The notes below the pieces were generated by a model. The model ran no database searches. It was not told the origin of the DNA and was given only the letters and a program-made list of their open reading frames with translations. A DNA stretch of 48,574 bases, taken from NCBI GenBank assembly GCA_014360895.1, contig JACIWQ010000010.1:1-48574 (forward strand), given 5' to 3'. Every line of letters starts with the position of its first letter. Position 1 is the first letter of the stretch. The position numbers were made by a program, and so were the translations under genes. Source of the DNA: Thermoflexales bacterium. GTDB lineage: Bacteria; Chloroflexota; Anaerolineae; B4-G1; DUEL01. Positions 7,441 to 46,772 of this stretch are shown here, piece after piece.

Positions 7441-7466
7441 GAGCCCAGGGCAACGAGGCGTCGCCC

Positions 7467-8750: not shown

Positions 8751-8848
8751 CGGGGTCCTCCTTTCGTTCAGAACGCGGCCCTTTTTCATACCGGTTGCCC
8801 GGCAGGATCAACCCGCCCGCAGCGGGCAGCGGGCCGGACTTCCGGGCC

Positions 8849-9310
8849 CTATTCTACCGGCTCCACTACCTGTGGGGTAACGCTGACGCCGCAGTATGGG
8901 CAGACCGCCCAGTGGAGTTGTAGGGGGCGCTTGCAGGCCGGGCAGGCCTGTTTGAGGCGGGTATGGCAGACGGGACAGAGGATGTAATCCGACTTGGCCC
9001 GCGCGCCGCAGCCGGGGCAGGTTTCGGGCTCCTCAATGGCCTGCAGAAGCGCCTCCTGTTCCAGCGAGCGCTCGTAGGCCTCCGCCAGCGTCTCGCGCGG
9101 GCGCAGCATCAGGTATACGATGATCCCGAAGAGAGGAATGAGCGCCACCAGCAGCGTGGCGACAATCCATGCCAGGACGTCCCGGGAACGGGCCCGCATG
9201 TCCCGGAAGGTCCAGATAATGGCCCCGCCATGCAAGGCGGTGAAAACGACACCAGCGCCCAGCGCCAGCCAGAAGACGAGTTTTGCCAGGGTATCCAGAA
9301 GGCCTTCCAT
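8849..9310 (-). CDS. PLDc_N-type membrane protein with C-terminal zinc ribbon
   Basis: A 153-residue protein of unknown function. Two hydrophobic helices (about residues 8-35 and 45-70) enclose a short loop, with FGIIVYLMLRPRE after the second; this is the pattern of the phospholipase-D-nuclease N-terminal (PLDc_N) domain, which here occurs without any phospholipase domain. A charged linker then leads to a zinc-ribbon region with four CxxC pairs (CPGCG, CPVC, CPACKR, CPYCG). It is probably an inner-membrane protein with a cytoplasmic metal-binding tail. AAGGAGC supports ATG 9310. A TTGCCC/TATAAT promoter lies immediately upstream. Confidence 0.75.
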   Translation of the reverse strand: MEGLLDTLAKLVFWLALGAGVVFTALHGGAIIWTFRDMRARSRDVLAWIVATLLVALIPLFGIIVYLMLRPRETLAEAYERSLEQEALLQAIEEPETCPGCGARAKSDYILCPVCHTRLKQACPACKRPLQLHWAVCPYCGVSVTPQVVEPVE

Positions 9311-31678: not shown

Positions 31679-31710
31679 AAAGTGCCGGGCTTTCGGATGC
31701 CCGGCACTTT
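31679..31710 (-). terminator. Terminator of the radical SAM/NTPase cluster
   Basis: A 12-bp perfect stem (AAAGTGCCGGGC / GCCCGGCACTTT) with an 8-nt loop. The minus strand continues into a five-T run and GTTG. It lies 28 nt after the stop of the radical SAM gene. The stem core is nearly that of the 26819-26850 terminator. Confidence 0.88.
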
Positions 31711-31737: not shown

Positions 31738-33291
31738 TTACGGGGTACCGTGAGTCCGCATTATTCTCAGCCCCTCCAGCCGCAGGAGGTCGGGGAGCAC
31801 GGCCCGATAGACGGCACAGTAGGGAGACGGGGCCAGCGGTGTGCCCCGATGCCGTTGGGCCATCAGCGGACAGCCGCCCGCGCAGATGTAGCGCCAGGGG
31901 CACTCCCGGCATTCCTCCTTTTCCTCCACCGGCGGGTTGCGGAACCCGTCCTCCGCCCGCACTGCGGCCAGCGGGTCCTCCTCCCAGACGGTGCCGGCCG
32001 TCCGCTCCATCTCCATATGGCAGCGGGCCACTCTGCCCTCCGGCCCGACCACCAGATAGGCGTGCCCGGCGCCGCAGGGGTAACGGTGGGGGAGGCCGAA
32101 GTCGCAGCGGTCCAGCAGATTGCAGAGGGCAAAGGGGAGGCTGCCGGCCACCGATTGCAACCGACGTTCTATCTCATCCAGGGCGGCCCGCAGGCCGGCG
32201 ATGAGGCGCTCCGGTTCGGGATTCAGGTCGGGACGGCCGGGGGCCGGGCGGACGAAGTTCAGGTTGAAGGGCATTTTCCGGTCCAGCGCGGAGGCCACCA
32301 CCTCCGCCAAACGGTCCACATTGTAGGTAGTGACGGTGACGGAGAGGTGAGGGGTCAGGCCCAGGGCCATCGCCTGTTCCAGTCCTCTGGCAACTCTCGC
32401 GAAGGAGCCGTTGCCGTCGGCGGACATCCGTTGCCCGTCGTGGGCCGGGCCCAGGCCGTCCAGGGAGACGGCAAGCCGAATCCCCTCATCCCGGAGCCAG
32501 CTCAGCAGGGCAGGGGTCAGGGTCGTGCCGTTGGTGAGGAGCACTTCCCGCAGTTCCAGGCCGGCCTGGGCGGTGCGTGCCCGCGCATACTCGTGGACGG
32601 CGCGGAGGGTGGGGAGGTTGAGGGTTGGCTCGCCGCCGGCGTACTTGAGTTTCAGGGCCCGGAAGCCACCTGCCCGCGCCGCGCGAATGGCCCCCTCCAC
32701 CGCCGCCTGCCCGACCTCCGGGGACATGTCGGCGTCGCCCCGGGGGGCGTAGCAGTAGGCGCAGCGGAGGTTGCAACGGGTCGTGAGGTGGAGCCAGATG
32801 GTGAGGGCGGGAGGGGTGAAGCGTGAAGCGGGAGGCGTGAAACGTGAAGCGTGAAGCGTGAGGCGTGAAACGTGGCGTGAAGCGTGAAACGTGACGGTAT
32901 CGGGGGGCTGGGGTGCCAGGAGGCCCAGCGCGGCCAGTTGGTGGGCGGTGGGGTCGGCCAGGGGGGCGGGGGTAGCGAAAGAATCCAGCATCTGAGCTGC
33001 CGGAGGGTTCAGCACCACCACTCCGGCGGGGCCGACGGGGTTGAAGGCCAGATGGTAGCCGTCGGGAAGGGGGGCGCGGTAGAGGGAGGGAGAGAGTCCC
33101 CAGAGCCCGGCAGGAGGCGGCTTGCCGATGGCCGATGGCAGGCCGGAGGGCATCGCGGGCGCGCAGGCGCAGTCGGTTTCGGCCACCTCAATCGCCGAAG
33201 TGATCCAGAAACCGGCGGCACAGGCGCAATCGGATTCACCATAATCATCGGCTGAAGGTGGAGTGAAAAAGATAGCACAACGATGGCTCAC
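31738..33291 (-). CDS. Radical SAM/SPASM protein with Cys-rich N-terminus
   Basis: A 517-residue peptide-modifying-type radical SAM enzyme. Residues 1-50 contain two near-identical boxes, ESDCACA (19-25) and ETDCACA (38-44). Residues 65-125 (LYRAPLPDGYHLAFNPVGPAGVVVLNPPAAQMLDSF) look like a PqqD/RRE-type peptide-binding module. Residues 131-162 (TFHASRHVSRLTLHASRFTPP) are translated ACGTGAA-type repeat DNA. The radical SAM core has C173, C177 and C180 in TTRCNLRCAYC with AGGEPTLN. The C-terminal SPASM region has CGAGHAY...ARCHME, ECRECPWRYICAGGC and SPYC for auxiliary Fe-S clusters. AGGAGC precedes GTG 33291. It overlaps the GNAT gene by 47 nt and ends at a good terminator. The substrate is unknown; no separate precursor peptide gene is visible. 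Confidence 0.85.
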   Translation of the reverse strand: MSHRCAIFFTPPSADDYGESDCACAAGFWITSAIEVAETDCACAPAMPSGLPSAIGKPPPAGLWGLSPSLYRAPLPDGYHLAFNPVGPAGVVVLNPPAAQMLDSFATPAPLADPTAHQLAALGLLAPQPPDTVTFHASRHVSRLTLHASRFTPPASRFTPPALTIWLHLTTRCNLRCAYCYAPRGDADMSPEVGQAAVEGAIRAARAGGFRALKLKYAGGEPTLNLPTLRAVHEYARARTAQAGLELREVLLTNGTTLTPALLSWLRDEGIRLAVSLDGLGPAHDGQRMSADGNGSFARVARGLEQAMALGLTPHLSVTVTTYNVDRLAEVVASALDRKMPFNLNFVRPAPGRPDLNPEPERLIAGLRAALDEIERRLQSVAGSLPFALCNLLDRCDFGLPHRYPCGAGHAYLVVGPEGRVARCHMEMERTAGTVWEEDPLAAVRAEDGFRNPPVEEKEECRECPWRYICAGGCPLMAQRHRGTPLAPSPYCAVYRAVLPDLLRLEGLRIMRTHGTP

Positions 33292-33760
33292 AACCTGCTC
33301 CTTGTTTTGAAGATGGCAACTCCAGGGCCATTTCTATCCATTCATCCTCCCCCCAGCCCGTAGGCCTGAAACCGTATTCTGAAAAAAGTTTCATAGCCTG
33401 ATGGTTATCGGATCGGGTGGTCAAGACCAGGCGAGAAAGCCCACGCTCCTGGGCCCAGGCAATAGCCTGCACGAGCATCTGCGCACCCAACCCCTGACCT
33501 CTGGCAGAAGCCAGAAGCCCAATACCCAGTTCGGCTTCCTCTTCGCTGGTAGGGAAAAGGCGGCACCACCCAACAATCCGTTCGCCGCTCAGCGCAACCA
33601 GCAGCAAGTGGCATGAACAATCCGGCTGGCTCAGCGCGTGCTCCCAGGCCGGCGTGGGCTCAAAGCGGGGGGTGCGCATCATCCCCTCAGCGCAGACGGT
33701 GTTGACAATAGAGCAAAGTTCGTCGTGGTCTCGAAGCCGATATAATCTTACCTCATGCAG
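33245..33760 (-). CDS. GNAT-family acetyltransferase
   Basis: An approximately 171-residue N-acetyltransferase. The acetyl-CoA-binding motif A is plain (ELGIGLLASARGQGLGAQMLVQAIAWAQERG), as is the C-terminal motif B region (LVLTTRSDNHQAMKLFSEYGFRPTG). The acyl acceptor is unknown. The start is a problem: homology-like sequence begins at HEVRLYRLRDHDEL, but no ATG, GTG or TTG lies there. The nearest candidate is CTG at 33760, inside the end of the NTPase-TPR gene, and the next ATG (two in tandem, about 33682) would cut off 26 residues of the domain. A non-standard start or a single-base error at the ATGA near 33757 are both possible. It overlaps the genes on both sides, so it belongs to the same transcript. 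Confidence 0.75.
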   Translation of the reverse strand: MHEVRLYRLRDHDELCSIVNTVCAEGMMRTPRFEPTPAWEHALSQPDCSCHLLLVALSGERIVGWCRLFPTSEEEAELGIGLLASARGQGLGAQMLVQAIAWAQERGLSRLVLTTRSDNHQAMKLFSEYGFRPTGWGEDEWIEMALELPSSKQGAGCEPSLCYLFHSTFSR

Positions 33761-36700
33761 CCAGTTGGTGCAGTTCTTCGTATGGGCCGAAATGTTTGAC
33801 CAGTTCTTTCCAGAGACGCCAATCTTCCTTTCGGGCTTTCCAGGGGAATTCATCGGCCATACCGGCGACAGCGTCATAGAAAGTCCTCAACTCCGAAACA
33901 TTCAGCACTTTCAGGCGATTATGGATCAGGTTGAGCGCCCGGCGAAGGTCCCGGAAATTTTCAGCCACCAGGGCATCATACTCCAGGGCCAGAGCAAATT
34001 CCCGGGCCGCCTGTCGTAAAGAGGGATAAGGTGGATGCAGTTGACTCTCCTGGGTTGGTGCAAAGCGATCCAGGGCACGCACGCCCTTAAGGATGTGCAA
34101 TCGGGCCATCTGAGAGAAAACAGCTAGAATCGTGTTCTCCTGGATAATAGGAGAGGTCTCAGGGGTTATCTGATACTGAGCAAACTGCTCCTGGATCAAC
34201 TGCTCCACTTTGGCTTGGTGTAAGCGGAGTTTTTCATCTGCGCCGGTGTAATGATATAGCCACGCCAAACCCATCGCAGCATCCAGATACAGCACCCATA
34301 GTTTGTGTTTCTCAGAAATTTCCATCGCCTGCCGGAATGAAGATTCCGATTGGCGGGCATGTTGTTCAATGTCCACCCCTTCTATCAAGGGGGGACGACA
34401 GAATTCCCGGTGGGCGATAGCTTCCTCATAGTAGGCTGTCCCCAACCGTTCAGGCTCCAGGAGGCGCTGAGAAAAAATCTCCTTAGCTTGGTGGCTGTAT
34501 TCCAGTGATTTCTCCAACCGGCTTTTCCGGGTGGCCGCCGGACAGGGCGGCTCGCTCATATAGCGGTAACAGGCGGCCAGGGAAAGAGCAGCCAATCCTT
34601 CGCCGCGATGGAAGTCGACCTCCCGAGCCACAGCCAACGCCCGGTGGGCCCACTCTTCGGCTGCCCGATAATCACCGGCGTAAATCTCAATCTGGGCGCG
34701 AGTGTTTAGCGCAAGGGACACGGCGCCGGCCAGGCCCAACCCCTGGCGCAATTTTAAAGCATCATTGGCATGACGGCAGGCGGGGTCAAATTCGCCCCGG
34801 AGAGCCAGGACAAAGGCCAGGTTGGTCAGCGTATTGGCCTGTTCGGCTTCCATTTTGACCGCGCGCCAGTGGGGGAGGGCTTTCCAGTACATCTCAGCTG
34901 CGGCGATAAATTGCCCCTGTACTCGCCGCAGATATCCCCAATGGTTATACAGTCGGCCAAGTATGGCACTATGCCGAATCCGAGTCTCTGAAGAAACCTC
35001 TAGAGCCCCCAAACGTTGTTGGGCTTCGTATAACCTGTGTTCGGCCTCAATCAAGTTCCCCTGATAGAAATGAATAGCAGCTTCAGCAATATCTAACTCG
35101 GCCTGGGTGAGGGGGCCGCCATCTGCAATCAGATACCGGGCCTCCCCTCGCAGCCTCTCTACCAACAGCTTTGCTTTGTCATACTCTCCAGCGACAATCT
35201 GCCGCTTAACCCACCGGACCGCTGCATCGGCCCGGACCTCGGCAAGAGAAAGATTCTGAACCCTGTCGGTGTGGCCTTGGGGAGCTTGTTCCCTCAAGAA
35301 TTCCATCAACTCTACTTGCAACTGAGCGTCCAATGTCCCATCGCCCATAGCCAACGCTTCTTCGGCGTACACAAAATATTGGTCAAATCCTTCGCGAGGG
35401 CTTCGGCGCAATCTGTAGTAAAGGTATTCCACCAAAGCTTCTCGGAGGCGCGCTGTTTCCAGAGCAATTTGATCTGAAGGGGGAAGACCAGATTGAACCT
35501 CGTACAAGCTTAAAATGTTCGCTTTGATCTGGTCAATGAGGGCTTCGTAATACTCCCGAAGAGGCTTGAACACCGCCTCCGGAATAGTCCCCCGGGGGTC
35601 ACGGAGAAGAGCATACATTTCATCATGCAGGAAGAGGCGCTGGTCAGCAGGACGGATTTTCACAAAAGAGAGGCGGCGGACCCGCTCGCATGCCTCTTTC
35701 AGCACATCCCCGCCAAGACCTGTGATTTGGCCTAAAAGGGCTTCATCGGCACCCCGATGTAGCCAGCTCAGGGCTTCCACCACTTTCTCCGTTGGATGCA
35801 AAGCCATGCGGATGGCCTCTTCCACCCCTTTTAGCAGACTGCCCTGGAGTTTCTCTCGTTCCTCTTTGGAAAGCCCTTTCACCTCTTCAAGAGACCGACC
35901 CAATGGAAAAGGCTGCCCGCTGATTGCCAGATACTCTATGGCCAGAGCTAGAAAGACGGGGCGCACTGTACCATCGTCCCGTAGGCCATAGAAACACATG
36001 CGGCGGAGATCGTTGTCCCACTGGGACAATCTATCAGCAGCCAACCGGTCTCGCGCTTCGGGGCTGGAGCGAAGAAAAGGAAGCAATACTTGAAAGTACT
36101 CTAAAGTTTCCTCTTCCGTAAAGCCCGAGAGCGAGATCGGAATAAAATTCCCGATGTTCTTCAATTCTTCTTCCACAGGAACAGGGCGGCCAGCCAGAAT
36201 GATCACCGTGTTCTGAAGATTAGGGAGAAAATCCTTCAAAAGCCATCCATAAACCATAGCAGCACCAATGGGAATACCCAATTCTCGGGCAACCGGATCA
36301 TCACGAAGAAACAATCGTTCCACCGTGTCTAAACCGAACAGAACGCGAGTTTGTTGGGCCATCTCGTTCCAGTCGCGGATGAAAGCCTCGATCATTTGCT
36401 CTTTCTGCCGTTGCCGTTCTGTGCTTTCTTCGGGTACCCGTCTCCACTTTTCTCGCTCTTCCAGATACCGTTCAAAGCCCTCCCCGCTCGGAGACATCAC
36501 GTCTTGAAGAGATTGCAAAAGCCCTTCCACAGTATGATTGATGGTGTGGTACATATCCACCGGCCGGGTGGCAGCTCGCAGGGATAGACCCTCCGGAGGA
36601 TTTTGGAGAATATGTTGAAGCAAGCGGGTTTTGCCGATACCGCCTGGCCCGGTAATGTAAATCACATACCGGTGGGGATGGTCCCGAAGGGCTTCCTCCA

Positions 36701-36791
36701 CAGAGGCCAGTTCCTTTTTCCGACCCACCAGCGTCGCCGTGGCGAGAGGGCTCAAATACACCTCTTCCGGGGAAATCGTAAAAGGGATCAT
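33753..36791 (-). CDS. STAND-like P-loop NTPase with TPR C-terminus
   Basis: A 1012-residue protein. After a short leader, the NTPase begins VGRKKELASVEEALRDHPHRYVIYITGPGGIGKTRLLQH, with Walker A GPGGIGKT at 48-55 and a Walker-B-like RVLFGLDT at 149-156. IILAGRPVP, before the ELKNIGNFIPISLSGFTEEETLEYF segment, resembles the sensor-1 and arm region of STAND/AAA ATPases. A helical middle domain leads to TPR-like helices (about 560-920), for example GYLRRVQGQFIAAAEMYWKALPHW and FVLALRGEFDPACRHANDALKL. STAND proteins of this shape act as ligand-triggered switches in signalling or antiphage defence. No effector domain (nuclease, TIR, protease) is visible in it. Its ATG overlaps the previous stop by 4 nt; it is the last of five NTPase genes. 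Cytoplasmic. Confidence 0.8.
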   Translation of the reverse strand: MIPFTISPEEVYLSPLATATLVGRKKELASVEEALRDHPHRYVIYITGPGGIGKTRLLQHILQNPPEGLSLRAATRPVDMYHTINHTVEGLLQSLQDVMSPSGEGFERYLEEREKWRRVPEESTERQRQKEQMIEAFIRDWNEMAQQTRVLFGLDTVERLFLRDDPVARELGIPIGAAMVYGWLLKDFLPNLQNTVIILAGRPVPVEEELKNIGNFIPISLSGFTEEETLEYFQVLLPFLRSSPEARDRLAADRLSQWDNDLRRMCFYGLRDDGTVRPVFLALAIEYLAISGQPFPLGRSLEEVKGLSKEEREKLQGSLLKGVEEAIRMALHPTEKVVEALSWLHRGADEALLGQITGLGGDVLKEACERVRRLSFVKIRPADQRLFLHDEMYALLRDPRGTIPEAVFKPLREYYEALIDQIKANILSLYEVQSGLPPSDQIALETARLREALVEYLYYRLRRSPREGFDQYFVYAEEALAMGDGTLDAQLQVELMEFLREQAPQGHTDRVQNLSLAEVRADAAVRWVKRQIVAGEYDKAKLLVERLRGEARYLIADGGPLTQAELDIAEAAIHFYQGNLIEAEHRLYEAQQRLGALEVSSETRIRHSAILGRLYNHWGYLRRVQGQFIAAAEMYWKALPHWRAVKMEAEQANTLTNLAFVLALRGEFDPACRHANDALKLRQGLGLAGAVSLALNTRAQIEIYAGDYRAAEEWAHRALAVAREVDFHRGEGLAALSLAACYRYMSEPPCPAATRKSRLEKSLEYSHQAKEIFSQRLLEPERLGTAYYEEAIAHREFCRPPLIEGVDIEQHARQSESSFRQAMEISEKHKLWVLYLDAAMGLAWLYHYTGADEKLRLHQAKVEQLIQEQFAQYQITPETSPIIQENTILAVFSQMARLHILKGVRALDRFAPTQESQLHPPYPSLRQAAREFALALEYDALVAENFRDLRRALNLIHNRLKVLNVSELRTFYDAVAGMADEFPWKARKEDWRLWKELVKHFGPYEELHQLAA

Positions 36792-37927
36792 CGCTCTCCC
36801 TCCTTCTGCCGAGTTAAACAGTTTTGATGATAGGATCTTTCACCCTCCCAGCGCGTTGCCGTAGAGGGAAATTCCTTCGCCCAGCGCTCATATAGATCGC
36901 GCGCGGCTTGGTGGAGAGCTTCCCACTTATCCGGATGGTTTTGCTGGAGGTGAAGTTCCACTAACTGGCGAACGATTCTATCCAAGACATACGCTCTTTC
37001 GTCAACGTCCCACTGGGCCAGGGCCCAACGGATCAGTTCGTCCCGCACCTGCCGGGCCTGAGCATATGTCCATTCCCGATAGGAGCGGTCACCGGTATAA
37101 GCCGCCATCATCTCGGGAATTCGGTCCTCATCAAAAGCGCGCAGAACACAGAGCGCCTCCAGATATTCGCGGATTTTCTGGCGGTGTTCCTCAGGGACTG
37201 GCTCCAGTAATTCCTCAATCACCGCATCTGACACCTGAGTGGGTTGGGGTTCTGCAGCGAGGAGGTAATTAGCCAGGGGGTTGCCCCCCGTCATACGGTG
37301 GATTTTCCCGGCTTGCGGAAGACCTTGTTGGGCCTGCCTTTCCAATTGCTGTCGGGTCTCCTCTTCACTTGGGAGCGGTTTTACGATCACCGGCTCTGCA
37401 CGAATCGTCAGGTCAGGTGTCCTCCATGGATACCATCGGCCGCGCCCTGTTAAGACAATAAACACCCGGGGCTCGGAGATCAGGGGGGCCAGTAGGTACT
37501 CCTCCAACAATGCCAGCAATGTCCAATCAGACTCATAAACGTGGTCTAGGATAAGGATAAGCGTTTTCCTGATCTTACGGACATGCTGGAGAAGTGTGCG
37601 AGACATCTCGGCCAAGTCGGTGCCCAGACGCTCCCCAGGCCCCCCAATCTTCTCGCTGACCCGACGGATAATATCCGCTGTGGCCCATCCCGGCTCCCTA
37701 CCCCTGTACTCCTTCAGGTCCAGCCGTAACACCTGGAGATCCTTGCGACGACGAAGTTGCCATTCCCAATGGGCTGGCAGCCAGGACTTTCCCACCCCAC
37801 GCTCCCCTCTAAAAATAACGGCGCGCTTTTCACCGGACTCTAAAATACGATCCAGCCGACTCAGTTCTTCTTCACGATTTACAAACTTGTCCGGCGAGTA
37901 CAATGGCGGAGAGAGCAGAACGGTCAT
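36788..37927 (-). CDS. P-loop NTPase (AAA/STAND-like), third small cluster member
   Basis: A 379-residue protein. VNREEELSRLDRILESGEKRAVIFRGERGVGKSWL gives Walker A GERGVGKS at 41-48; TLILILDHV (about 121-129) is Walker B, with His in place of the usual second acidic residue. RVFIVLTGRGRW follows as a sensor-1-like strand, and PLPSEEETRQQLERQAQ as the helical arm. The last 170 residues are helical and charged, with no known domain. The frame is open upstream to 38536, but GGAGG just before ATG 37927 and the 4-nt overlap with the upstream gene fix the start. It also overlaps the downstream NTPase-TPR gene by 4 nt. It is probably a soluble partner of the other NTPases; no function is known. Confidence 0.75.
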   Translation of the reverse strand: MTVLLSPPLYSPDKFVNREEELSRLDRILESGEKRAVIFRGERGVGKSWLPAHWEWQLRRRKDLQVLRLDLKEYRGREPGWATADIIRRVSEKIGGPGERLGTDLAEMSRTLLQHVRKIRKTLILILDHVYESDWTLLALLEEYLLAPLISEPRVFIVLTGRGRWYPWRTPDLTIRAEPVIVKPLPSEEETRQQLERQAQQGLPQAGKIHRMTGGNPLANYLLAAEPQPTQVSDAVIEELLEPVPEEHRQKIREYLEALCVLRAFDEDRIPEMMAAYTGDRSYREWTYAQARQVRDELIRWALAQWDVDERAYVLDRIVRQLVELHLQQNHPDKWEALHQAARDLYERWAKEFPSTATRWEGERSYHQNCLTRQKEGER

Positions 37928-39126
37928 TTGAGTCCTCCTTGAAAATAATAGATAGACATCGTCTGGTACCAATGGATGGCTGCTTGGATGTCCATTGCCG
38001 CTAAAAGGCCATCCCCTTCTCGCCGGACATGCTCCTCCACAACGCGGCGAGTAATAACCAGTATTTCGCGCGGGAGGGGATAGACCGTCTTCGCCAACAA
38101 AGTCTCTATATCCCGCAGAGCAGGGGAGGCCAAAGCATCCAGGCTGCCAAAGGCGCCCTCGGTGGCCACGTAGACCCGCCGACGAATCACCTCTGCCAAC
38201 AACTCCGGCGTCCAGTGAATGACGGACACACAAGCCGGGGTAAATATATCCGGGAAGCGTTCCTCCAGTGGAGATTGCGCTTCCATAGGGAGAAACCCCT
38301 TCAGGAATACCCGCTCTTCCGCCCATTCCCCCGCCCATTGCAATAGGGGCTTCAAGCAGCCGGCGATGGCCGATGGGTCGGCAATTGTTTCGGGCGCGCC
38401 ATCCAGCCCATCCAGCAAGACATAGACGCTCGGAAAGCCCAACAGGCCCCGCAGGAGATCCTTTAATCGCACCCAACGTTCTCCGGGTGGAGGTGGCGGC
38501 CCACCTCCGGCAACCGCTTCCAGAGCGTCGCACCACCTGATTACCTCATCGGGAGCAGGCGGGTTTCGGAGGACGAAAGCGGGGTCCAGAACTTCCGACA
38601 GGATCTGGGGATTCGCGGCCGCACGGCACCGCCCCAGATAGGCCGAGAGGGGACCAGGAAGATTCCAATGAAGTGTCTCAGCAATATGCCGACGTCCCGG
38701 TTCATCCAAGCGAAGAAACCAATAAGGACGATAGGCCATAACCAGGAGGAGCGCGATCGCGCCTGCGCGGGACAAAGCAGCCAGGTGCTCCTCTTCTGAA
38801 GGATGTGTGTGTCCCCAGGCCAGGAAGGGGGGCACATAGGGGATCGGGAAGGGGCGATTGGTCTCTTGCCCGACCCAGCAGGCCTGCATCACGCTGATGC
38901 GCAGGGCCGTTTTGCCACCGCCTGCTGGAGCAAAAACCCAGGAAACTCCATCTCCCCAGACGCGCGCGAAGATATGGTGGCCGACCAAGTACTCACTGAG
39001 GTGGGGATCGGCAGCCGCATCCAGCAATGCGAAGGGGTCAAACCGAAAGCCAGCCCACCTCAGCCACTTGGTCACCTCCGGCGCGTCCGGCATGCCCTGA
39101 GGAATAGTGCTATCTGGAGAAGCCAT
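37924..39126 (-). CDS. P-loop NTPase, paralogue of the winged-helix NTPase
   Basis: A 400-residue protein. WAGFRFDPFALLDAAADPHLSEYLVGHHIF precedes VSWVFAPAGGGKTALR (Walker A at about 66-73). VYVLLDGLDGAPET (about 234-247) is Walker B with Asp-Gly-Leu-Asp. The DPxLSxYxV...F lead-in and the LLDGLDG strand match those of the next gene upstream (EDEPWLSVCFVPPPEF and WVMTDGLEG), so the two are divergent paralogues. Residues 170-215 form a Pro-rich insertion. The C-terminal 120 residues are helical, with no DNA-binding domain. The start is uncertain: ATG 39126 and GTG 39135 lack a good ribosome-binding site. It lies 220 nt after the winged-helix NTPase gene, and that gap holds the phased repeats. 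Confidence 0.72.
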   Translation of the reverse strand: MASPDSTIPQGMPDAPEVTKWLRWAGFRFDPFALLDAAADPHLSEYLVGHHIFARVWGDGVSWVFAPAGGGKTALRISVMQACWVGQETNRPFPIPYVPPFLAWGHTHPSEEEHLAALSRAGAIALLLVMAYRPYWFLRLDEPGRRHIAETLHWNLPGPLSAYLGRCRAAANPQILSEVLDPAFVLRNPPAPDEVIRWCDALEAVAGGGPPPPPGERWVRLKDLLRGLLGFPSVYVLLDGLDGAPETIADPSAIAGCLKPLLQWAGEWAEERVFLKGFLPMEAQSPLEERFPDIFTPACVSVIHWTPELLAEVIRRRVYVATEGAFGSLDALASPALRDIETLLAKTVYPLPREILVITRRVVEEHVRREGDGLLAAMDIQAAIHWYQTMSIYYFQGGLK

Positions 39127-39322
39127 CGGAGTCACAGAAGGGGAAGGGGGAGAAACAGTAGCAATATCATCTATGCCGGACCAACCGAAAAATCGCCGGA
39201 TAGTAAAAATAGCATCTTTTTACCCCCTCTGGTTTCTCCAAATGCAGATATATTATGGCGCGGTTAATAAAATGAGGCAAGAGCGTATAGGGCTTTCGCG
39301 CTTGCAATTCTCTTTAAAATCG

Positions 39323-39349
39323 CTCACAGTTATCTCACCAATTCCTCAC
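39323..39349 (-). promoter_or_regulatory. 11-bp-phased GTGAG direct repeats (three units)
   Basis: CTCAC occurs at 39323, 39334 and 39345 on the plus strand, i.e. three GTGAG boxes at exact 11-bp steps on the minus strand, the strand of the operon. They overlap the stop codon of the winged-helix NTPase gene and lie upstream of the next NTPase gene. The following 190 nt (39136-39322) is AT-rich, and a CATAAT/TATATC stretch near 39248-39258 could be a -10. Confidence 0.55.
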
Positions 39350-40764
39350 CAGCGGACCTGAAGGACCACGCCGTGCCCCCGGCGAGTGAGGAGGAGAACC
39401 GGCTCTCGGGGGTCCGGTTCTATCGCCTGTCGCAAGCGCCAGAGATTGGTATCTATCAGGCCGGCATATTGGGTGGGGGCTTCGTAACCGTCATCCCCTG
39501 GGCGAGGAATCCGCTCCTTGCCGAGATACACCCGGAAGTACAGTTCGGCTTTAGTAACTACCTGACCACTATGGCGATACAAATAGCAGAGCATGTCATA
39601 GGCTTTTGCCGGCAGGTCCTCCAGGTTAACCAAGCGGCCTCCGATTCTTACCTGCCGCCTCTCCTCGTCAAGATAGAATCGCGGAGGATGTTCCTGCCGC
39701 AATCTTTTCCAAGTTTCCTCCCCTATGGGTGTGTCCTGGGGATTGGCCATATAGTATTCGGCCAGTACCGCCACTTGGTCCAGCCACTCCCGGGGCGACG
39801 TGCCTCCCACTTTCTCCAACCACTTCCGGAGCGTGGGAGCGCTGCAGAGTTGGTCCAGGGAGAATGTTTCTTTCCCAAAAGCGAAGGCCAGGCGCCGTTC
39901 CACTAGCCCCTGGAGCATAGAAGGGTCCCATCGGATCCGGATGCCCTCTATGCGCCGTCGGGCCATCCCACTGGCGCGGCTGACCGCTGGCTCCATCTCT
40001 GCTGGTAGGAACAATTTGTACACCGGGCCGGATGGGCTGAAAAGAGAGAGAGTGGATAGAAAAGCCTTCAGGCTTTCCGTCAGGTGTTCCGGGGCCACGC
40101 TGGCCCATCCTTCTAAGCCGTCGGTCATTACCCAGATACCTTCCATCCCCAACCCCTTCACCGCACTGAGCAATTCAGCCAACACCATTTCGGAAGGAGC
40201 ATCATTGTACAGAACAGTGGGAACAGGGGCTCCTAAAACCTGGCGAATCAGAGGGGCCCCCGGCTCAGAGCCCTCTGCCAGTGGTTTCCAGCGCACTTCC
40301 GGCGGGCCGAGGGTATACCGATGGATAAACCAGATAATGCGTTCCTGGACCCATTCGGAGACGCCCGTGTAATCCTCCGGGAAACGGTAGAGATGGTGGA
40401 CCAGTGCCGAAGCACAGGCATCCAGCATCTCCCTTGTTAGCCGACTGACCCAGGGCAGGCCCGAATGCTCCTCCGGTGGAAGCGGGGCCGGGCGCCAGTG
40501 GACTATCAAACGCACCGGCCTGCCATCCGGGCGAATATTAAGGGCCTCCAACTCCCGGTAGATAGCCGTCTTGCCGCTTCCTGGCTCGCCAAAAATCACA
40601 CAGGAGCGAGAGTCAGCCATCCGACCGAATTCCGGTGGGGGAACAAAACATACCGAAAGCCACGGCTCATCCTCCGCCCGAAGAAATCGGAAGACAGTCG
40701 GGCCAGGAGAATCACCCTTTGAATCGGCAAGAAGTCTCTGAGAATCGGAGGGTTCTATGCCCAT
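39346..40764 (-). CDS. P-loop NTPase fused to C-terminal OmpR-type winged helix
   Basis: A 472-residue protein. CVIFGEPGSGKTAIYREL gives Walker A at 59-66, and GIWVMTDGLEGW (209-220) is Walker B. A helical region follows, then residues 364-472 form a winged-helix domain of the Trans_reg_C (OmpR/PhoB) type: RQVRIGGRLVNLEDLPAKAYDMLCYLYRHSGQVVTKAELYFRVY...IDTNLWRLRQAIEPDPREPVLLLTRRGHGVVLQ, with the recognition helix at DTNLWRLRQAIEP and the wing at TRRGHGVVL. The order NTPase then winged helix is the reverse of SARP/AfsR proteins. It is probably a nucleotide-switched transcription factor for this cluster; the phased repeats overlapping its own stop codon are candidate targets. The start ATG shares one base with the preceding stop (TGATG). 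Confidence 0.8.
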   Translation of the reverse strand: MGIEPSDSQRLLADSKGDSPGPTVFRFLRAEDEPWLSVCFVPPPEFGRMADSRSCVIFGEPGSGKTAIYRELEALNIRPDGRPVRLIVHWRPAPLPPEEHSGLPWVSRLTREMLDACASALVHHLYRFPEDYTGVSEWVQERIIWFIHRYTLGPPEVRWKPLAEGSEPGAPLIRQVLGAPVPTVLYNDAPSEMVLAELLSAVKGLGMEGIWVMTDGLEGWASVAPEHLTESLKAFLSTLSLFSPSGPVYKLFLPAEMEPAVSRASGMARRRIEGIRIRWDPSMLQGLVERRLAFAFGKETFSLDQLCSAPTLRKWLEKVGGTSPREWLDQVAVLAEYYMANPQDTPIGEETWKRLRQEHPPRFYLDEERRQVRIGGRLVNLEDLPAKAYDMLCYLYRHSGQVVTKAELYFRVYLGKERIPRPGDDGYEAPTQYAGLIDTNLWRLRQAIEPDPREPVLLLTRRGHGVVLQVRW

Positions 40765-42491
40765 CAGGCCGGCCCCAACACTTCATCCAGGTCTTCTGGT
40801 GTCAACCGGCGCCCTGTCTCACCGATACGCCGAAGCAGGGCGTTGCCCAGGGAAATCAGTTGGCGAGGGCTATGCCCGGATGCTGCAATCAACCGCTCCT
40901 CTGCCGCAAGCCCTTCCCATACCCGCAGGTCACACCACGCATCCAGGGTCTCCTCAGAGGTTAGACGGCCCAACCGGCGCTGCAGCAAGGCCCGAAGGTC
41001 CTCATCTGACCATTCCAGCGACTCCCCATACTTCCATAGGCTTGTAGCAGGAGAGGCGGCCACGAAAACCTGAAAGGAGACACCGGTCTGAACCAATACA
41101 TCCTTAAATGCGTAAAAAGATAGAATAGCATCTTCGGTTTCCATGATTCCCTGAACATCCAACAGAACCAGAGTACGAGGGAAATCCGCCGGACGGGCTT
41201 CATCTAACAACCGGAGAAGGTCTGCCTGGGAAAGCGTTGATTTAGATAAACCAGCAGGATAGGCTTTGAACTCCTCCTGTACTTTTCCACCCTCCCCAGC
41301 GGATGACAAGCCCGCTTCCTGAAGATAGATGAGAGGGTCCACAGGCAGGTAGCCGGAAAGAAGCCGTTTGATCGCTTGTCTGGCGCTATAGGGGCATTTC
41401 GTTAAAGCGGAGGGGGAAAGCGCGACGTATCGGGCGATTGCTTGAGCCGTCCACCGCGCCAGATTGTCCAGGCTTAATGGAAGTGCGGCCACTCGGCAGT
41501 ATACCGGAAACGCCGTTTGCCTATCCAGAACATCGTAGGCCAGGAGAAGCGCGGCGGCGGTTCTGCCGCCTCCGGGCACAGTGACGAAAATTTCACTGGA
41601 AGAAAGGGCTATCTTCTCCCACCATGAAGGGTGCACCCGGGCTTTCAGCAAATGAGCGTCCACTTCCGCTCTCTCCGGGCCAAACAGGTTGACGCTCAAC
41701 CCCAGATACCTAAGGCCCCGAATGACCCATCGGTCCGGCGCAGACAAATCCTTGCCGAGGGTAACTTCTGACCAAATGCCTACAATCGCCCGCCATTTTT
41801 TCTCGGTCCATTCGGGGAGAGAGCCTCCCAAATTCAGCAGCTTGTCGGCTACGCGGGAGCGCCAATCTTCATCAAGATGATTGTAGACCCATAGGAGAGA
41901 CGCACACTCTTCAGTGGGAGCAAAATCCTTTGCTTCAGGAAATTTTTCTAACAGGGCGACCGCGCAGCGGAGTTCTGGGGGAGACCCTCTTTCCCACACT
42001 TCCTCCAGGCGGGCACGAATCCGGCCATGTCGCCAGATACCCCCCATTTGCCTAAATTTCACGTAACGGCGTGCACCCTCGGATAAGTCCCTCCGAAGAA
42101 GGTCGGGGAACTCTTCTTCAATACCGCAGATAGCCCGGGTCTCTTCTTCGCGCTGGCGTCGCTCTTCTTCTTCGTGACCTTTCCACTGCTGGAGGCCAAA
42201 ACCGATCAGAGCTGAGAGCAGGGAACCCAGAAAAGCGATGGATTCTTTTCCTTCGCCCACCAGCGGGATTTTCAGGGTATCGGGAAGGAGATACCTCATG
42301 AGGTAAAAAAGCCCAATAGCCCCCAATACCCATAGGAGCAAGATAAACAGGGCTTTAAAAAACCGCCAAAGAGCCAAAAAAAGCCATTCATCGGCAAGAT
42401 GCCAGTACCACCGCTGGATTCGGCGAAACCAGTCCTGATACCAGCGCCCGATTCGGTGGAGCCAGCCAGGGGAAGATTTTCTGCCCGCCAC
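40764..42491 (-). CDS. Membrane-anchored protein with degenerate P-loop NTPase domain
   Basis: A 575-residue protein, first gene of the cluster. A basic/aromatic leader (GWLHRIGRWYQDWFRRIQRWYW) is followed by membrane helices at about 36-69 and 84-101, then a charged helix (HEEEERRQREEE) and a cytoplasmic region. EIFVTVPGGGRTAAALLLAYDVL (301-323) occupies the Walker A position but has Arg in place of the invariant Lys, so ATP hydrolysis is doubtful. RTLVLLDVQGIME (439-451) is Walker-B-like without the glutamate. FQVFVAASPATS resembles sensor 1, and SGHSPRQLISLGNALL a C-terminal helical lid. It looks like an inactive NTPase anchoring the system to the membrane. GGAGGGGGGT precedes GTG 42491. 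Confidence 0.72.
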   Translation of the reverse strand: MAGRKSSPGWLHRIGRWYQDWFRRIQRWYWHLADEWLFLALWRFFKALFILLLWVLGAIGLFYLMRYLLPDTLKIPLVGEGKESIAFLGSLLSALIGFGLQQWKGHEEEERRQREEETRAICGIEEEFPDLLRRDLSEGARRYVKFRQMGGIWRHGRIRARLEEVWERGSPPELRCAVALLEKFPEAKDFAPTEECASLLWVYNHLDEDWRSRVADKLLNLGGSLPEWTEKKWRAIVGIWSEVTLGKDLSAPDRWVIRGLRYLGLSVNLFGPERAEVDAHLLKARVHPSWWEKIALSSSEIFVTVPGGGRTAAALLLAYDVLDRQTAFPVYCRVAALPLSLDNLARWTAQAIARYVALSPSALTKCPYSARQAIKRLLSGYLPVDPLIYLQEAGLSSAGEGGKVQEEFKAYPAGLSKSTLSQADLLRLLDEARPADFPRTLVLLDVQGIMETEDAILSFYAFKDVLVQTGVSFQVFVAASPATSLWKYGESLEWSDEDLRALLQRRLGRLTSEETLDAWCDLRVWEGLAAEERLIAASGHSPRQLISLGNALLRRIGETGRRLTPEDLDEVLGPA

Positions 42492-42529
42492 ACCCCCCTC
42501 CGGACCGACATAGAGGACGAACCGATTTT

Positions 42530-42558
42530 ATTTTAGCATAAAAATAGCCGGAGGGCAA
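42530..42558 (-). promoter_or_regulatory. Promoter of the NTPase cluster
   Basis: On the minus strand, TTGCCC (42558-42553), 17 nt, then TAAAAT (42535-42530), 38 nt before the GTG start at 42491. A second overlapping TAAAAT lies at 42530-42525. Confidence 0.7.
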
Positions 42559-42578
42559 CTTGCTGAGAGAGTTGCGCG

Positions 42579-42815
42579 CTTGCCTGTGCTGGACCCAAGA
42601 AACGCATGCGCAGGCCGTTAGCCCTATGGTGCTAATTTTCGCTTAGCACAGGCTGTTGAGCCTGCAAAAGCGGGCCAGGATGGGCATCCTGCGGGACTAT
42701 GTGTCCGTCCTCTCAGGCCTGGCGGCCTGCGCCACGTTCTTTCTGCACAAATGTTAGTACCATTGGGCTGTTAGCCCGCACCCGGCAAGCCCGGTGGCCT
42801 ATGCTCCAAGACCAA
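42579..42815. repeat. Gene-free stretch with GCAGGC-type palindromes
   Basis: This region between the NTPase cluster and the Thr-Pro protein holds degenerate inverted repeats. GCAGGCCGTTAGCCC, CACAGGCTGTTGAGCCTG (about 42646-42664), AGGCCTGGCGGCCTG and TGGGCTGTTAGCCCG are of the type that recurs at 10180-10220 and 19515-19555. No open frame with coding character is seen. Confidence 0.6.
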
Positions 42816-42829
42816 CAGCGCAAGCCATG

Positions 42830-43906
42830 CTACTGATATATCACCACCACTGGCGGCGGGGAGAGGCGGAGGACGTCGGCGGGGGACATCAGAGGGACGT
42901 CGTAGTCGTAGAAGAGTTTGAAGCCGCCGTACTCAAACCCCGGCTCCCGGCTGTACTGGACATAGTCGCCGATTTTGGCCCCCGGAGAGCCAAAACCGTC
43001 CGCATCCCAGACCAGGTCCACGCAGGGGTAGTCCAAGATGCAGTGTTTGCTCCCAATCATCCGGTCGTCAAACTGGTGGATGATGAGAATCTTGCGCTCG
43101 CCCACCGCGCGGGAGATGCGGTCCAGCCGGGCCTGGATGCGGTTGATCTGCGGGCCGCTGATAAATCCCAGGTTCTCCCCCGGCACCTGCTCGGCACCGA
43201 CGATGAACTCCGGGTCCACCGCCAGATGGACGCCCGGCTCCAGCAGGAACGGCTCCACCATGTCCAGTTCCGCCTCCAGGTCGGCCCGGCCCACCTGGAG
43301 GTCCAGGAAGACCCATACGTCCGCCTCCCGCGCGGCGTCTATCCAGAGGCGAATCGTGTCGGTGGGCACCCGGTGGTTGTAGTCCTCGTCCTCTCCGGCA
43401 TAGCCGTCGGCGATGGTGACGACCATGTGGAAGGCCGGGACGGTTTCCACTGTGGGATCCAGGTCCCGGTAGGCCTGGACCTGCTCCGCCAGCAGGGCAA
43501 GGGTGGTGGTGATGTCGTGGCGGCCCAGGATGCCCAGGCCCGGCCCCAACGGGGTGCCGTAAAAGGCCACCACCCGACGGCCTGCCAGCGCGGAGGCCGG
43601 ACACCCCGCCACCAGCGGGAGCGGCTCCGGGTCCGGACATGGCTCGGGGGTCGGGAGGGGAGAGCGCAGGGCAGACCCCGCCGTCTGCGGGAGCGGCGTC
43701 GGGGTGGGAGTCGGTGTGGGCGTGGGCGTGGGGGTCGGGGTCGGGGTGGGCGTCGGAGTCGCCGTCGGCGTGGGCGACGGGGTAGGAGTGGCCGTGGCGG
43801 TCGGGGTGGCCGTGGGGGTGGAGGTCGGGGTGGGGACCAGCGCGGCCTCACGCCCGGCGGTCAACTCCCGGCCGATAGCCAGAGACAACAAAAGGCCCGC
43901 CAGCAC
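42830..43906 (-). CDS. Secreted protein with long Thr-Pro repeat linker
   Basis: A 358-residue extracytoplasmic protein. A short hydrophobic N-terminus ([11 protein letters not shown]) is followed by a Thr-Pro dipeptide repeat of about 50 residues (25-72), encoded by a GTCGGG/GTGGGC-type microsatellite. A 250-residue domain follows ([38 protein letters not shown]... to the C-terminus) whose alternating strands with VFLDLQVG and VHLAVDPEF look like a TIM-barrel fold. VDPEF, with an acidic pair, could be a catalytic site, but no enzyme family is recognised with confidence. The start is uncertain: GTG 43906 gives a very short signal sequence, and the hydrophobic reading continues upstream ([12 protein letters not shown]) to an ATT at 43930 without any standard start. 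Heptamer repeats lie just upstream. Confidence 0.65.
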
Positions 43907-43980: not shown

Positions 43981-44057
43981 CCTGCTTCCTGCTTCCTGCT
44001 TCCTGCTTCCGGCTTCCGACTTCCGACTTCCTGCTTCCGACTTCCTGCTTCCGACTT
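43981..44057. repeat. Heptamer tandem repeat (CCTGCTT/CCGACTT)
   Basis: Eleven consecutive 7-bp units: four CCTGCTT, one CCGGCTT, two CCGACTT, then alternating CCTGCTT and CCGACTT. The last unit contributes two bases to the TAA stop of pheT (44058-44056). Related 7-8 bp motifs of a GTGATTC/GTGATTTG type occupy 43934-43957. Confidence 0.95.
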
Positions 44058-46569
44058 ATCCCCCCCGCAACGTGGCGCCGATCTCCCGCTCCAGGCGCCG
44101 GACGATTTTCTCCCGCACCCGCGCCACCTCCGAATCGGTCAGCGTGCGGTCGCCGGCCTGGTAGGTCAGGCGGTAGGCCAAGCTCTTCTTGCCCGGCCCC
44201 ACCTGCTCCCCGCGATAGACGTCAAAGAGGACGACGGAGTGCAGCAGCGGCGCGCCGGTCTGCGCGATGAGGTCCCGCACCCGCACCGCCGGGGTCTCCT
44301 CGTCCACCACCACCGCCAGGTCCTCGTAGACGGGCGGGTGGAGGGAGATGGGGGTCATCCGGCGCGGCGCGCCCCAGAGGCCCATGAGGACCTCCAGGTC
44401 AAACTCCAGCGCGACCACCGGCCCCTCCGGCAGGTCAAAGGCCTCCCGCACCAGGGGGTGGAGTTCGCCCATGACGCCCAGGACGTGCCCGTTGACGGAG
44501 ACCTGCGCGCAGCGGCCCGGATGGAAGGCGGGATGCTGACCGCGCTCAAAGGTGCCGGAGAGGCCCAGGCCTGCCAGCAGCGCCTCCACCACGCCCTTGA
44601 GGTCGTAGAAGCCCAGGAGGGTCGTCTGGCGGTCGGGGAGCCAGGAGCGGGGCTCGCGCGGGCCCGTCATCGCCACTCCCAGGCGGAGGGGTTCGTCCGG
44701 CAAAGTCTCTCCCTCCACGGGCAGGTAGACGGCGCCGATCTCAAAAATCGCCACCCGCTCCTGGAAGCGCAGGTTCTCCCGCAATGTGCGCAGGAGCGAG
44801 GGGAGCAGCGTCTGGCGCAGGTAAGCCCGGTCGGCGGAGAGGGGGTTCCGGAGCCGCAGGTAGCGGGCCGGGTCTGGGGCCGGGCCCTGCGGATAGAGTT
44901 TCCCTTCGTCCTCCAGGTCCACCAGCGAGTAGGTAATGACTTCGTCCAGCCCACAGCCCACCAGCAGGTCCCGCACCCGTTCGGCGCACTCCAGGCGGAC
45001 GTTGGGCCGCTGGGGTGGCAGTTCGTCCCGTAGGAGCGTGGGTGGGAAGCGGTCGTACCCCCAGACGCGGCCAATCTCCTCCACCAGGTCCACGGGACGG
45101 GTGACATCGGGGCGGTGGGAGGGGACGGTGACCCGGTAGATGGGTTGATTTGAGGAGGTGGTGGGCTGGACGGCGAATTCCAGGGCGGTGAGGATGCGGA
45201 CGACGTCCTCCGGCGGGATTTCCACGCCCAGGATGCGGGTGACGTCGGCGGGGTTCAGTTCCACGGTCCGGGGCGGCTGGCGGCCCGGGTAGACGTCGCC
45301 GACCACCGGCGCGACGGTCCCACCGGCCAGTTCGGCCATAAGGAGCGCGGCGCGCAGGGCGGCGGGGACCGTCAACTCCGGGTCCACCTGGCGGCCAAAG
45401 CGCTGGGCGGCCTCGCTGGTCAGTCCCAGGAGGCGGGAGGTGCGCCGGACGCTCAGGAAGTGGAAGTTGGCCGATTCCAGGAGAATGTCGGTGGTGGCGT
45501 CGGTGATTTCGCTCTCCAGGCCGCCCATGACGCCCGCCACGGCCACGGGCCCCGCGCCGTCGGTGATGAGGAGCATCTCGCCGTCAAAGGTGCGCAGAAA
45601 CCCGTCCAGGGTGGTCATCTGTTCGTTCGGACGGGCGCGCCGGACGATGATGGCGGGTCGGCGCTCGCCGGGGCGCGGGCGCAGGCGGTGGTAGTCAAAG
45701 GCGTGGAGAGGCTGGCCCAGTTCCAGCATCACGTAGTTGGTGATGTCTACAATGTTGCTGATGGGGCGCATGCCCGCCAGCCGCAGCCGCATCTGCATCC
45801 AGAAGGGGGAAGGGCCCACACGGACGCCGCCGATGAAGGCCGCCGAGTAGCGGGGGCAGAGGTCGGGGTCGGCAATCTCCAGGGCGACGAAGTCCGGCTC
45901 CGGGGCAACGGAGACGGGATGGCGCGCCAGGACCTGGCGGGGGTCGTCCCGCAGGGGTTGGTCCAAGAGTGCCGCCACCTCCCGGGCGATGCCGAAGACG
46001 GAGTAGAGGTGGGCGAAGGGCCCTTTGATGTCAAATTCCAGGACGGCGTCGCCCAGGTATTCGGCCAGGGGAACGCCCACGGGGGCATCGTCGGGCAGGT
46101 AGATGATGTCTTCGTGCTGGTCCGAGATGCCCAGTTCTTTTTCGGAGCAGACCATAGCGCGGGAGGGGACGCCGCGAATTTTGGTGGCCTTGAGTTTGGT
46201 GACCTGGAAGCCGGGGGCGTGGCCGTCGTAGAGGTGGGCGCCTTCCAGCGCGAAGGCGACCTTGATGTGCAGGTCGGTCTGGCCCCGGCGGGCCAGGAGG
46301 CCCGGCGCGCCGGTGACGACGACCTCCGGCGCCGGCCCGCCGTACTCCACTTCCGCCAGGACCAGCCGGTCGGCATTGGGATGGGGGTGGATGGCGCGCA
46401 GTTCGCCGACGACGATTTTATCCGGCTCCCAGGGGAGTTCCGCGCCGGGCAGGCCGATGTAGGTGACCGTCTCCACCTCCAGACCGGCCAGGGTGAGCCG
46501 TTCGGCCAGTTGGGGGATGGGGATGGGAATGTCCACGTAGTCTTTGAGCCACGATAGCGGCACGCGCAT
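44056..46569 (-). CDS. pheT: Phenylalanine-tRNA ligase beta subunit
   Basis: The 837-residue beta subunit of the (alpha-beta)2 synthetase. It has an N-terminal [14 protein letters not shown], an EMAP-II-like tRNA-binding domain (about 40-150), the B3/B4 editing region ([56 protein letters not shown]), the B5 domain, the catalytic-like core and a C-terminal FDX-ACB domain ([29 protein letters not shown]...[20 protein letters not shown]). GGAGGAA precedes ATG 46569; the frame upstream to 46614 lacks a start signal. It lies 203 nt downstream of pheS on the same strand, separated by repeats but with no clear terminator, so both are probably under T-box control. Confidence 0.96.
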
Positions 46570-46588
46570 GGGTTCCTCCAGTTCGTTT

Positions 46589-46772
46589 CTTACCACCAAG
46601 ACACGAAGGCACAAAGCAAAAAGGAACAGACTTTATCGGAAGTAGCGCCAGGTGGCGCAGCGCGTATCTCCTTAAGTAAGAAAAATCTGCGCTCGTCCGC
46701 GTTCGTCCGCGTCCTATTTCCGATGAAGTTTAATATTTTTTCCCTTCGTGTCTTCGTGTCTTTGTGGTTCTC
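46589..46772. repeat. pheS-pheT spacer: inverted CACGAAGACACAAAG repeats
   Basis: ACCACCAAGACACGAAGGCA (from 46591) and the inverted CTTCGTGTCTTCGTGTCTTT (ending near 46769) flank the dispersed 88-bp repeat at 46636-46723. In the pheST transcript these arms could pair into a long hairpin between the two genes. The same family forms the three-unit array at 22091-22320. Confidence 0.75.
46636..46723. repeat. 88-bp dispersed repeat, copy 2 (inverted)
   Basis: Reverse-complement relative of 19573-19656, with ends TCGGAAGTAG and CTATTTCCGA forming imperfect terminal inverted repeats. The part GCGCTCGTCCGCGTTCGTCC is nearly identical between copies; the other half has diverged. Confidence 0.75.

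Follow-up and report, generated by a model that had tools for sequence, protein, structure and literature searches.

A predicted membrane-anchored pseudo-NTPase as the possible output subunit of a five-NTPase operon in Chloroflexota

The DNA analyzed here, referred to as the window, is a stretch of 48,574 nucleotides from a Thermoflexales bacterium (JACIWQ010000010.1, contig 2 of a 3.57-Mb draft genome), and the subject of this work is the gene N1 (40764..42491, on the reverse strand, as are all window features given below). N1 has a GTG start and encodes a protein of 575 amino acids that is predicted, from a fold model and from homologs, to be a membrane-anchored pseudo-NTPase. It opens an operon with four further NTPase genes. 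N2 (39346..40764) has a start that overlaps the N1 stop (TGATG) and a product with a C-terminal winged helix (Trans_reg_C), and it is followed by N3 (37924..39135) and by N4 (36788..37927), which is probably read from an internal ATG at 37927, giving 379 rather than 582 amino acids and an ATGA overlap with N3. N5 (33753..36791) shares an ATGA overlap with N4 and encodes an AAA_16 NTPase of 1012 amino acids with TPR repeats. The order N1-N2-N3-N4-N5 is identical in 25 loci, the window included (21 and 4 in two samples). Variants, cited here by locus number, include L037, with an extra N4 between N1 and N2, and L018, in which N4 and N5 are fused and N3 is absent.

A first-pass annotation, made from the sequence alone, had described N1 as carrying a degenerate Walker A motif next to four NTPases with intact P-loops, and this description was borne out. 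N1 reads PGGGRTA at residues 306-312 (41556..41576), with Arg310 (codon AGA, 41562-41564) at the position of the Lys, while N2 to N5 read GEPGSGKT, APAGGGKT, GERGVGKS and GPGGIGKT, respectively. The Walker B-like sequence LVLLDVQG (residues 441-448, 41148..41171) keeps its Asp, and none of the four residues that follow (+1 to +4) is acidic, so that the second acid is missing as described. Sequence alignment also placed a sensor-2-like motif, GHSPRQL, in the lid (40857..40877); it is not fixed, since L015 and L016 have PAQL instead. The two membrane helices that had been placed ahead of the NTPase domain correspond to a predicted hairpin of residues 47-65 and 84-100 (42192..42353), identified by hydropathy, by the model and by comparison of the N-terminal slot among relatives. 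The first segment is clear (Kyte-Doolittle mean of 2.52 over 19 residues) and the second is weaker (1.98 over the 17 residues 84-100, and 1.40 over the 19 residues 84-102). In the model these regions lie in two long helices, residues 10-68 and 82-134, and the loop between them (residues 69-81) is short and of low confidence. Pfam matches of N1 to VTT and BIV_Env were below their cut-offs and were taken as chance.

The AlphaFold2 model of N1, built from 15 sequences, had a mean predicted local distance difference test score (pLDDT) of 85.1 and a predicted template modeling score (pTM) of 0.72. Foldseek against the PDB ranked AAA+ proteins at the top (Tip48/RuvBL2, TnsC, Cdc6, RFC and ORC) with a probability of 1.00. 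VIA-align scored Drosophila ORC-Cdc6 and Pyrobaculum Cdc6 at Z 11.5, the NRC4 resistosome at 11.2, the Dark apoptosome at 10.5, CED-4 at 10.2 and Apaf-1 at 9.9; each of these matches spans about 205-225 residues, and middling Z scores are common with this program. Judged by their titles, the entries among the VIA-align matches listed were P-loop NTPases. Of the features that define the STAND/ORC-Cdc6 clade, the parallel central sheet, the P-loop and the helical lid are present in the predicted structure, the Walker A Lys of GxxxxGK[ST] is absent (the sequence reads PGGGRT), and the acid after the Walker B Asp is absent in the window. A sequence search of solved structures with N1 returned nothing meaningful. 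The predicted fold matches and the sequence motifs together indicate that the N1 domain is a P-loop NTPase of the STAND/ORC type, which is the outcome that the first-pass annotation had proposed to look for by structure prediction, and a fold other than NTPase is ruled out by the model, Foldseek and VIA-align.

Clamp loaders, RFC and ORC are heteromeric AAA+ assemblies with degenerate subunits. Like them, the operon encodes several paralogous AAA+ subunits, some probably without ATPase activity, and ORC/Cdc6 is the best structural match to N1; unlike in those assemblies, no link to DNA replication was seen here, and the heteromer is one that we infer. The degenerate subunits of ORC are treated in section 19 of PMC8195603, and in the same section Kaur et al. 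propose nucleic-acid sensing for inactive STAND domains in general. Applied to N1, the proposal would have the eroded domain bind invader nucleic acid while the active partners respond. The closeness of the fold to ORC/Cdc6 fits such a sensor, as do the published proposals for iSTAND, iSTAND2 and BREX BrxB, so far as the cited texts go, and the fact that N1 had the lowest identity among the genes compared in four of five pairs; a membrane tether is awkward for DNA sensing, and we consider this role quite improbable.

Across 38 N1 proteins, the Walker A position holds Lys in 11, Arg in 14 and Gln in 1, and the motif is lost in 12. These comprise a first set of 29 (Lys 8, Arg 12, Gln 1, lost 8), four Roseiflexus-type proteins (all lost) and five from divergent cassettes (Lys 3, Arg 2). 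An automatic column count had given Arg in 14/33; L117 and L118, in which the motif is lost and the Arg falls there by chance, were reassigned, which leaves 12 Arg and 12 lost. Two loci were dropped from the N1 counts: L022, whose 242-residue protein aligns with N1 in part, and L121. In the latter (6410-8852, forward strand) N1 is broken into three open reading frames (ORFs) adjoining full-length N2-N5. The first-pass annotation had reasoned that orthologs with a normal P-loop would make the Arg a local mutation. A normal GK[ST] does occur in the 11 proteins with Lys, but Arg is fixed in all four same-genus orthologs (the window, L014, L015 and L016) and recurs elsewhere, which points to a trend rather than a local mutation; a local mutation or a sequencing error is ruled out on the same grounds. 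The genus also holds another, divergent cluster (genome G003, L023), whose N1 has Lys.

The loss of the Lys in N1 exceeds chance. The Walker A Lys is retained in 8/33 N1 proteins compared with 116/120 N2-N5 proteins (Fisher p 7.7e-18, descriptive only, because the rows are related), and the individual partners retain it in 30/34 (N2), 28/28 (N3), 30/30 (N4) and 28/28 (N5). These partner counts leave out L087-L089 as too divergent; another tally that includes them gives 27/31, 25/25, 26/26 and 25/25. The Walker B Asp is closely followed by an acid in 32/34 N2 and in all N3, N4 and N5 rows (118/120 in total), whereas none of the eight Lys-bearing N1 rows has one within four residues; the four partners in the window keep both the Lys and this acid. 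On a tree of concatenated N2-N5 sequences from 27 loci, the Arg label of N1 requires five changes, to or from Arg, at least four of them by well-supported branches, and the lost-motif state occupies one side of a branch with support of 82. The extra N4 of L037, although included in the N4 counts, is not part of this tree, and neither are L019 and L021, which have too few columns. N1 is under purifying selection, with a ratio of nonsynonymous to synonymous substitution (dN/dS) of 0.16-0.34 in five pairs. The full-length ORF and a dN/dS below 0.35 in these pairs rule out a pseudogene.

Judged by its motifs, N1 probably does not hydrolyze ATP. Lys-to-Arg changes in Walker A can leave nucleotide binding, and Arg can support binding in some P-loop proteins. 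The earlier term "inactive NTPase" is thus probably right for hydrolysis and is not safe beyond it. Alternatively, N1 could be a common kind of Walker A variant in which ATP is still bound and slowly hydrolyzed, with the Arg functionally meaningless. The Lys kept in 11/38 relatives, from which the N1 ancestor probably bound ATP, speaks for it, and so does an acid three or four residues past the Walker B position in 7 of the 11 assessable Arg proteins (L015, L016, L018, L021, L037, L075 and L079; the row of L019, truncated at a contig end, is not assessable). With the motif wholly lost in 12/38 proteins, some of them weak homologs, and with no second Walker B acid in the window N1 or in any of the eight Lys-bearing rows, this explanation is judged to be highly improbable.

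By sequence, the region ahead of the NTPase domain is a slot in which modules are exchanged. A Pfam scan covered 32 of the 38 N1 proteins (L015, L016 and L117-L120 lay outside it) and found modules above cut-off in seven: TIR in L080 and L086, caspase in L076, trypsin in L137, EAD7 in L072 and L020, and a CbiA/MinD-ParA domain in L136. The EAD7 domain, one of the effector-associated adaptor domains described in the part of PMC7159879 used here, lies at the N-terminus in L072. In L020 (12779-14119, reverse strand), a protein with Gln in its Walker A, it is inserted in the NTPase domain, behind the strand that carries Walker B. In L136 (10954-14328, reverse strand) a single product of 1124 residues joins a MinD/ParA-like domain and an N4-like NTPase to N1. 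The two genomes with an EAD7-bearing N1 also encode EAD7-CHAT (G011), or EAD7-TIR and TIR-trypsin-EAD7 (G237); the genome of the window has no EAD7 match at E 0.01. In reduced cassettes, three of the five N4 proteins scanned carry TIR, EAD7 or CHAT. At least one N-terminal membrane segment is present in 22/29 N1 proteins. That this operon position can be filled by a protein with any of these Pfam modules suggests that N1 is most likely the subunit that carries the output module. The "regulatory or scaffold subunit" of the first-pass annotation was therefore right in part and too vague, as this position carries such modules in 7/32 scanned N1 proteins.

The membrane segments admit another role. 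N1 could be a receptor whose membrane part senses an extracellular or envelope signal and relays it to the four active NTPases, which would influence transcription by way of the N2 winged helix. The transmembrane-domain-transmembrane architecture of many N1 relatives and the C-terminal Trans_reg_C domain of N2 are consistent with such a receptor. The modules found in seven scanned N1 proteins are not, and in the window the short, low-confidence interhelix loop would leave N1 little to sense with, so we regard a receptor role as unlikely.

On sequence and modeled structure, the reading that is moderately favored gives N1 the role of output subunit in a conflict system of Chloroflexota (immunity or programmed cell death) made of five related STAND/ORC-like NTPases. 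With about the same modest confidence, N1 is taken to be a non-hydrolyzing, effector-bearing subunit, and the membrane hairpin its output module in the window. For the assembly, the trigger and the killing by the N1-N5 system, we infer the following course. N5, with its TPR arm, would sense a trigger, and the active NTPases would change their nucleotide state and form an assembly that includes N1. To this assembly N1 would provide an interface without hydrolysis, and would therefore be carried passively while its N-terminal module becomes clustered. As the module in the window is a two-helix membrane hairpin, the likely output there would be a clustered membrane lesion or membrane recruitment, whereas elsewhere it may be NAD+ cleavage (TIR), proteolysis (caspase and trypsin) or the recruitment of effectors tagged with EAD7. 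N2 probably binds DNA through its winged helix, either for autoregulation or as the trigger itself, and a radical SAM/SPASM protein encoded next to N5 is probably a further component, acting in peptide maturation. If true, the system would be a multi-subunit relative of apoptosomes and inflammasomes with sensing, switching and killing on different proteins, and the contribution of a dead NTPase subunit to an assembly of this kind could then be addressed, since N1 provides a natural series of Lys, Arg, Gln and lost motifs inside one operon family.

Several observations weigh against this reading of N1 as an output subunit. No recognizable catalytic or adaptor domain was found by Pfam in 25 of the 32 N1 proteins scanned, most of which have membrane segments that may be sensors, and in many membrane-bearing N1 proteins two transmembrane segments enclose a domain of roughly 130-215 residues, in place of the short loop of the window and its genus-mates. 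The acids near the Walker B position of the Arg proteins count on the same side. The fold model had no Foldseek match in the PDB at E 0.001 or better, the best being 1.3e-3. The lost state rests partly on weak N1 homology, with profile scores of 17-22 bits for L081 and L083-L085 and 38-40 bits for L076 and L082, all six being assigned by operon position as well as by score. Nor is degeneration unique to N1: N2 of L036, L076, L077 and L079 has Asn or Arg for the Walker A Lys, at loci where the N1 P-loop has Arg or is lost, and among the divergent cassettes N2 of L133 reads GSGRS and N2 or N4 of L128, L129, L135 and L138 lacks a P-loop by pattern. No N1 was seen in the cassettes L128, L129, L135 and L138 or in the N4-N5 cassettes. 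PADLOC gave no match for N1 or N3 and weak ones for the other operon proteins. No recognizable defense island surrounds the operon in the window, which is adjoined by phenylalanyl-tRNA synthetase genes. Matches to NF053860 (DS41_1 anti-phage protein) fall short of its cut-off of 370 bits, at 57 for N3, 48.9 for N2 and 15.5 for N1.

The radical SAM/SPASM gene of the window (31738..33291) belongs to a family whose members adjoin the N5 end of the operon in 25/28 loci, the window included. In L117-L121 the gene lies on the opposite strand, convergent with N5. Of the other three loci, L016 is cut off by a contig edge, L078 includes the beginning of the radical SAM gene and L082 is without one there. 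The subfamily was found in 68/396 genomes of the class at E 1e-80, and 31 of its 72 places have a match to the N1 or N2 profile within 15 kb. An N5-type protein adjoins the radical SAM gene in 16/18 flanks examined of these 72 places, and in 9 of the 11 among these flanks that belong to the 41 places lacking an N1/N2 match. From these two counts, N5 and the radical SAM protein look like a constant core of the system, whereas N1-N4 may be there in full, in part or not at all.

As expected of a maturase of the radical SAM/SPASM type, the protein has the Pfam Radical_SAM domain and a C-terminal Cys pattern; it scored 64 bits against TIGR04269 (cut-off 370) and so falls outside the FxsB maturase family. 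Near its N-terminus are two DCAC motifs, at residues 21-24 and 40-43 (33163..33231), and one to four [DN]CAC motifs occur near the N-terminus in 22/24 such sequences. Elsewhere in the loci, [DN]CAC was seen only in two truncated radical SAM frames (L078 and L086) and in a pair of short L081 frames. These repeats suggest that the protein is possibly an enzyme with a built-in substrate of the type of ribosomally synthesized and post-translationally modified peptides. If the preferred reading is right, STAND switches would also be tied to radical SAM peptide chemistry with an apparently built-in substrate. An extended version of the preferred reading is a split apoptosome: one STAND/NLR-like machine spread over five paralogous NTPases in a heteromeric wheel, with the effector on the dead N1, the DNA-binding winged helix on N2 and the TPR sensor on N5. 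Its trigger or amplifier would be a peptide cross-linked by the radical SAM/SPASM enzyme on its own N-terminal DCAC repeats and read by the TPR arm of N5. This model is speculative and unlikely.

Inactive STAND proteins with swappable effectors are already known, as iSTAND, iSTAND2, a two-gene GT4/HEPN system and BREX BrxB, in the parts of PMC7159879, PMC8195603 and PMC12839542 considered here. The iSTAND of MoxR-vWA ternary conflict systems is described in the relevant part of Kaur et al. 2020 (PMC7159879) as an inactive STAND with an N-terminal TIR, caspase-like, trypsin-like or EAD module, and these systems as enriched in multicellular bacteria. As set out there, the N1 family resembles it, since by sequence 7/32 N1 proteins carry a swappable N-terminal effector or EAD on an inactive STAND. 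It differs in its partners, a radical SAM protein and four NTPases of STAND/ORC-like type whose P-loops are intact; by Pfam, no MoxR or vWA was found in N1-N5 or in 10 flanking ORFs of the window, and the other loci were not scanned for them. In the two-gene STAND operon of Kaur et al. 2021 (PMC8195603, section 15), an eroded member is fused to a variable effector, and the authors infer a toroidal hetero-multimer. As far as that section goes, the likeness is an active and an inactive NTPase in one operon with the variable effector on the inactive one; the operon studied here differs in having five NTPases, with the winged helix and the TPR arm on separate subunits, and in its modules, which are TIR, caspase, trypsin, EAD7, MinD/ParA-like or transmembrane. 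The 32 scanned N1 proteins had no Pfam match to GT4 or HEPN.

FxSxx-COOH peptide-processing systems with an AP-ATPase-TPR protein, as presented in section 24 of PMC7159879, likewise combine a radical SAM/SPASM enzyme with a TPR-bearing NTPase and TIR effectors, and the TPR region of N5 has a match to NCBIfam HaaT (E 1.8e-8), which at 33 bits is well short of the cut-off of 1125. No FxSxx precursor or metallopeptidase was seen among the operon genes of the window, and, in contrast to the systems of that section, the candidate substrate motifs (DCAC) lie here on the radical SAM protein itself. NF053860, which we equate with DS-41 of PMC13092281 on the strength of its name, matched N2 (E 4.8e-13) and N3 (E 1.6e-15). 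These two proteins are thus remote sequence relatives of the DS-41 anti-phage system (DefensePredictor; NF053860 / NF047389), as covered in the text consulted, and lie far below the curated cut-offs. In open-license PubMed Central text, no description of this five-NTPase assembly was recognized. The logic of the inactive STAND is shared with known systems; among the proteins scanned neither MoxR/vWA nor GT4/HEPN was found, and what is added is the four paralogs with intact P-loops, the winged helix, the TPR arm and the radical SAM enzyme.

With regard to its spread, N1 was found in 10/60 genomes at E 1e-3, its own included. The N1 profile matched 51/396 genomes of the class at E 1e-8, including matches to the paralogous N2 and N3, and the N2 profile matched 166/396 at E 1e-10, in many cases by the winged helix only. 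At E 1.4e-89 or better, the N2 profile identified 27 places in 25 genomes. A sample of the phylum gave matches in 14/400 genomes at E 1e-30, including six that belong to other classes. A locus search with N1 alone returned no relatives, a search with the N2 alignment did, and a plasmid search with N1 and N2 gave no match.

Among the remaining features of the window, a gene for a GNAT acetyltransferase (33245..33877) lies between N5 and the radical SAM gene and has a homolog in only 9/27 other loci. A promoter-like site (TTGCCC, a 17-nucleotide spacing, and TG before TAAAAT; 42530..42558) lies just before N1, and a terminator-like 12-bp stem (31679..31710) lies just after the radical SAM gene. 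Both are consensus matches only, of a kind that shuffled sequence yields too, with 6 promoter-like sites found in the region against 4.5 expected and 9 terminator-like stems against 13.7. Upstream of the operon, the phenylalanyl-tRNA synthetase beta and alpha genes (44056-47822) provide a housekeeping context. The guanine plus cytosine content per kilobase is 0.52-0.61 in the bins 34000-42999, which hold N1-N5, and 0.59-0.69 in the bins on either side; this mostly lower content may reflect horizontal acquisition. A mosaic was also observed between L015 and L016 (G001 and G003), in which N3-N5 are at least 99.5% identical with a synonymous divergence (dS) below 0.01, whereas dS is 0.10 for N1 and 0.30 for N2, a pattern that recombination at the N1-N2 end could have produced.

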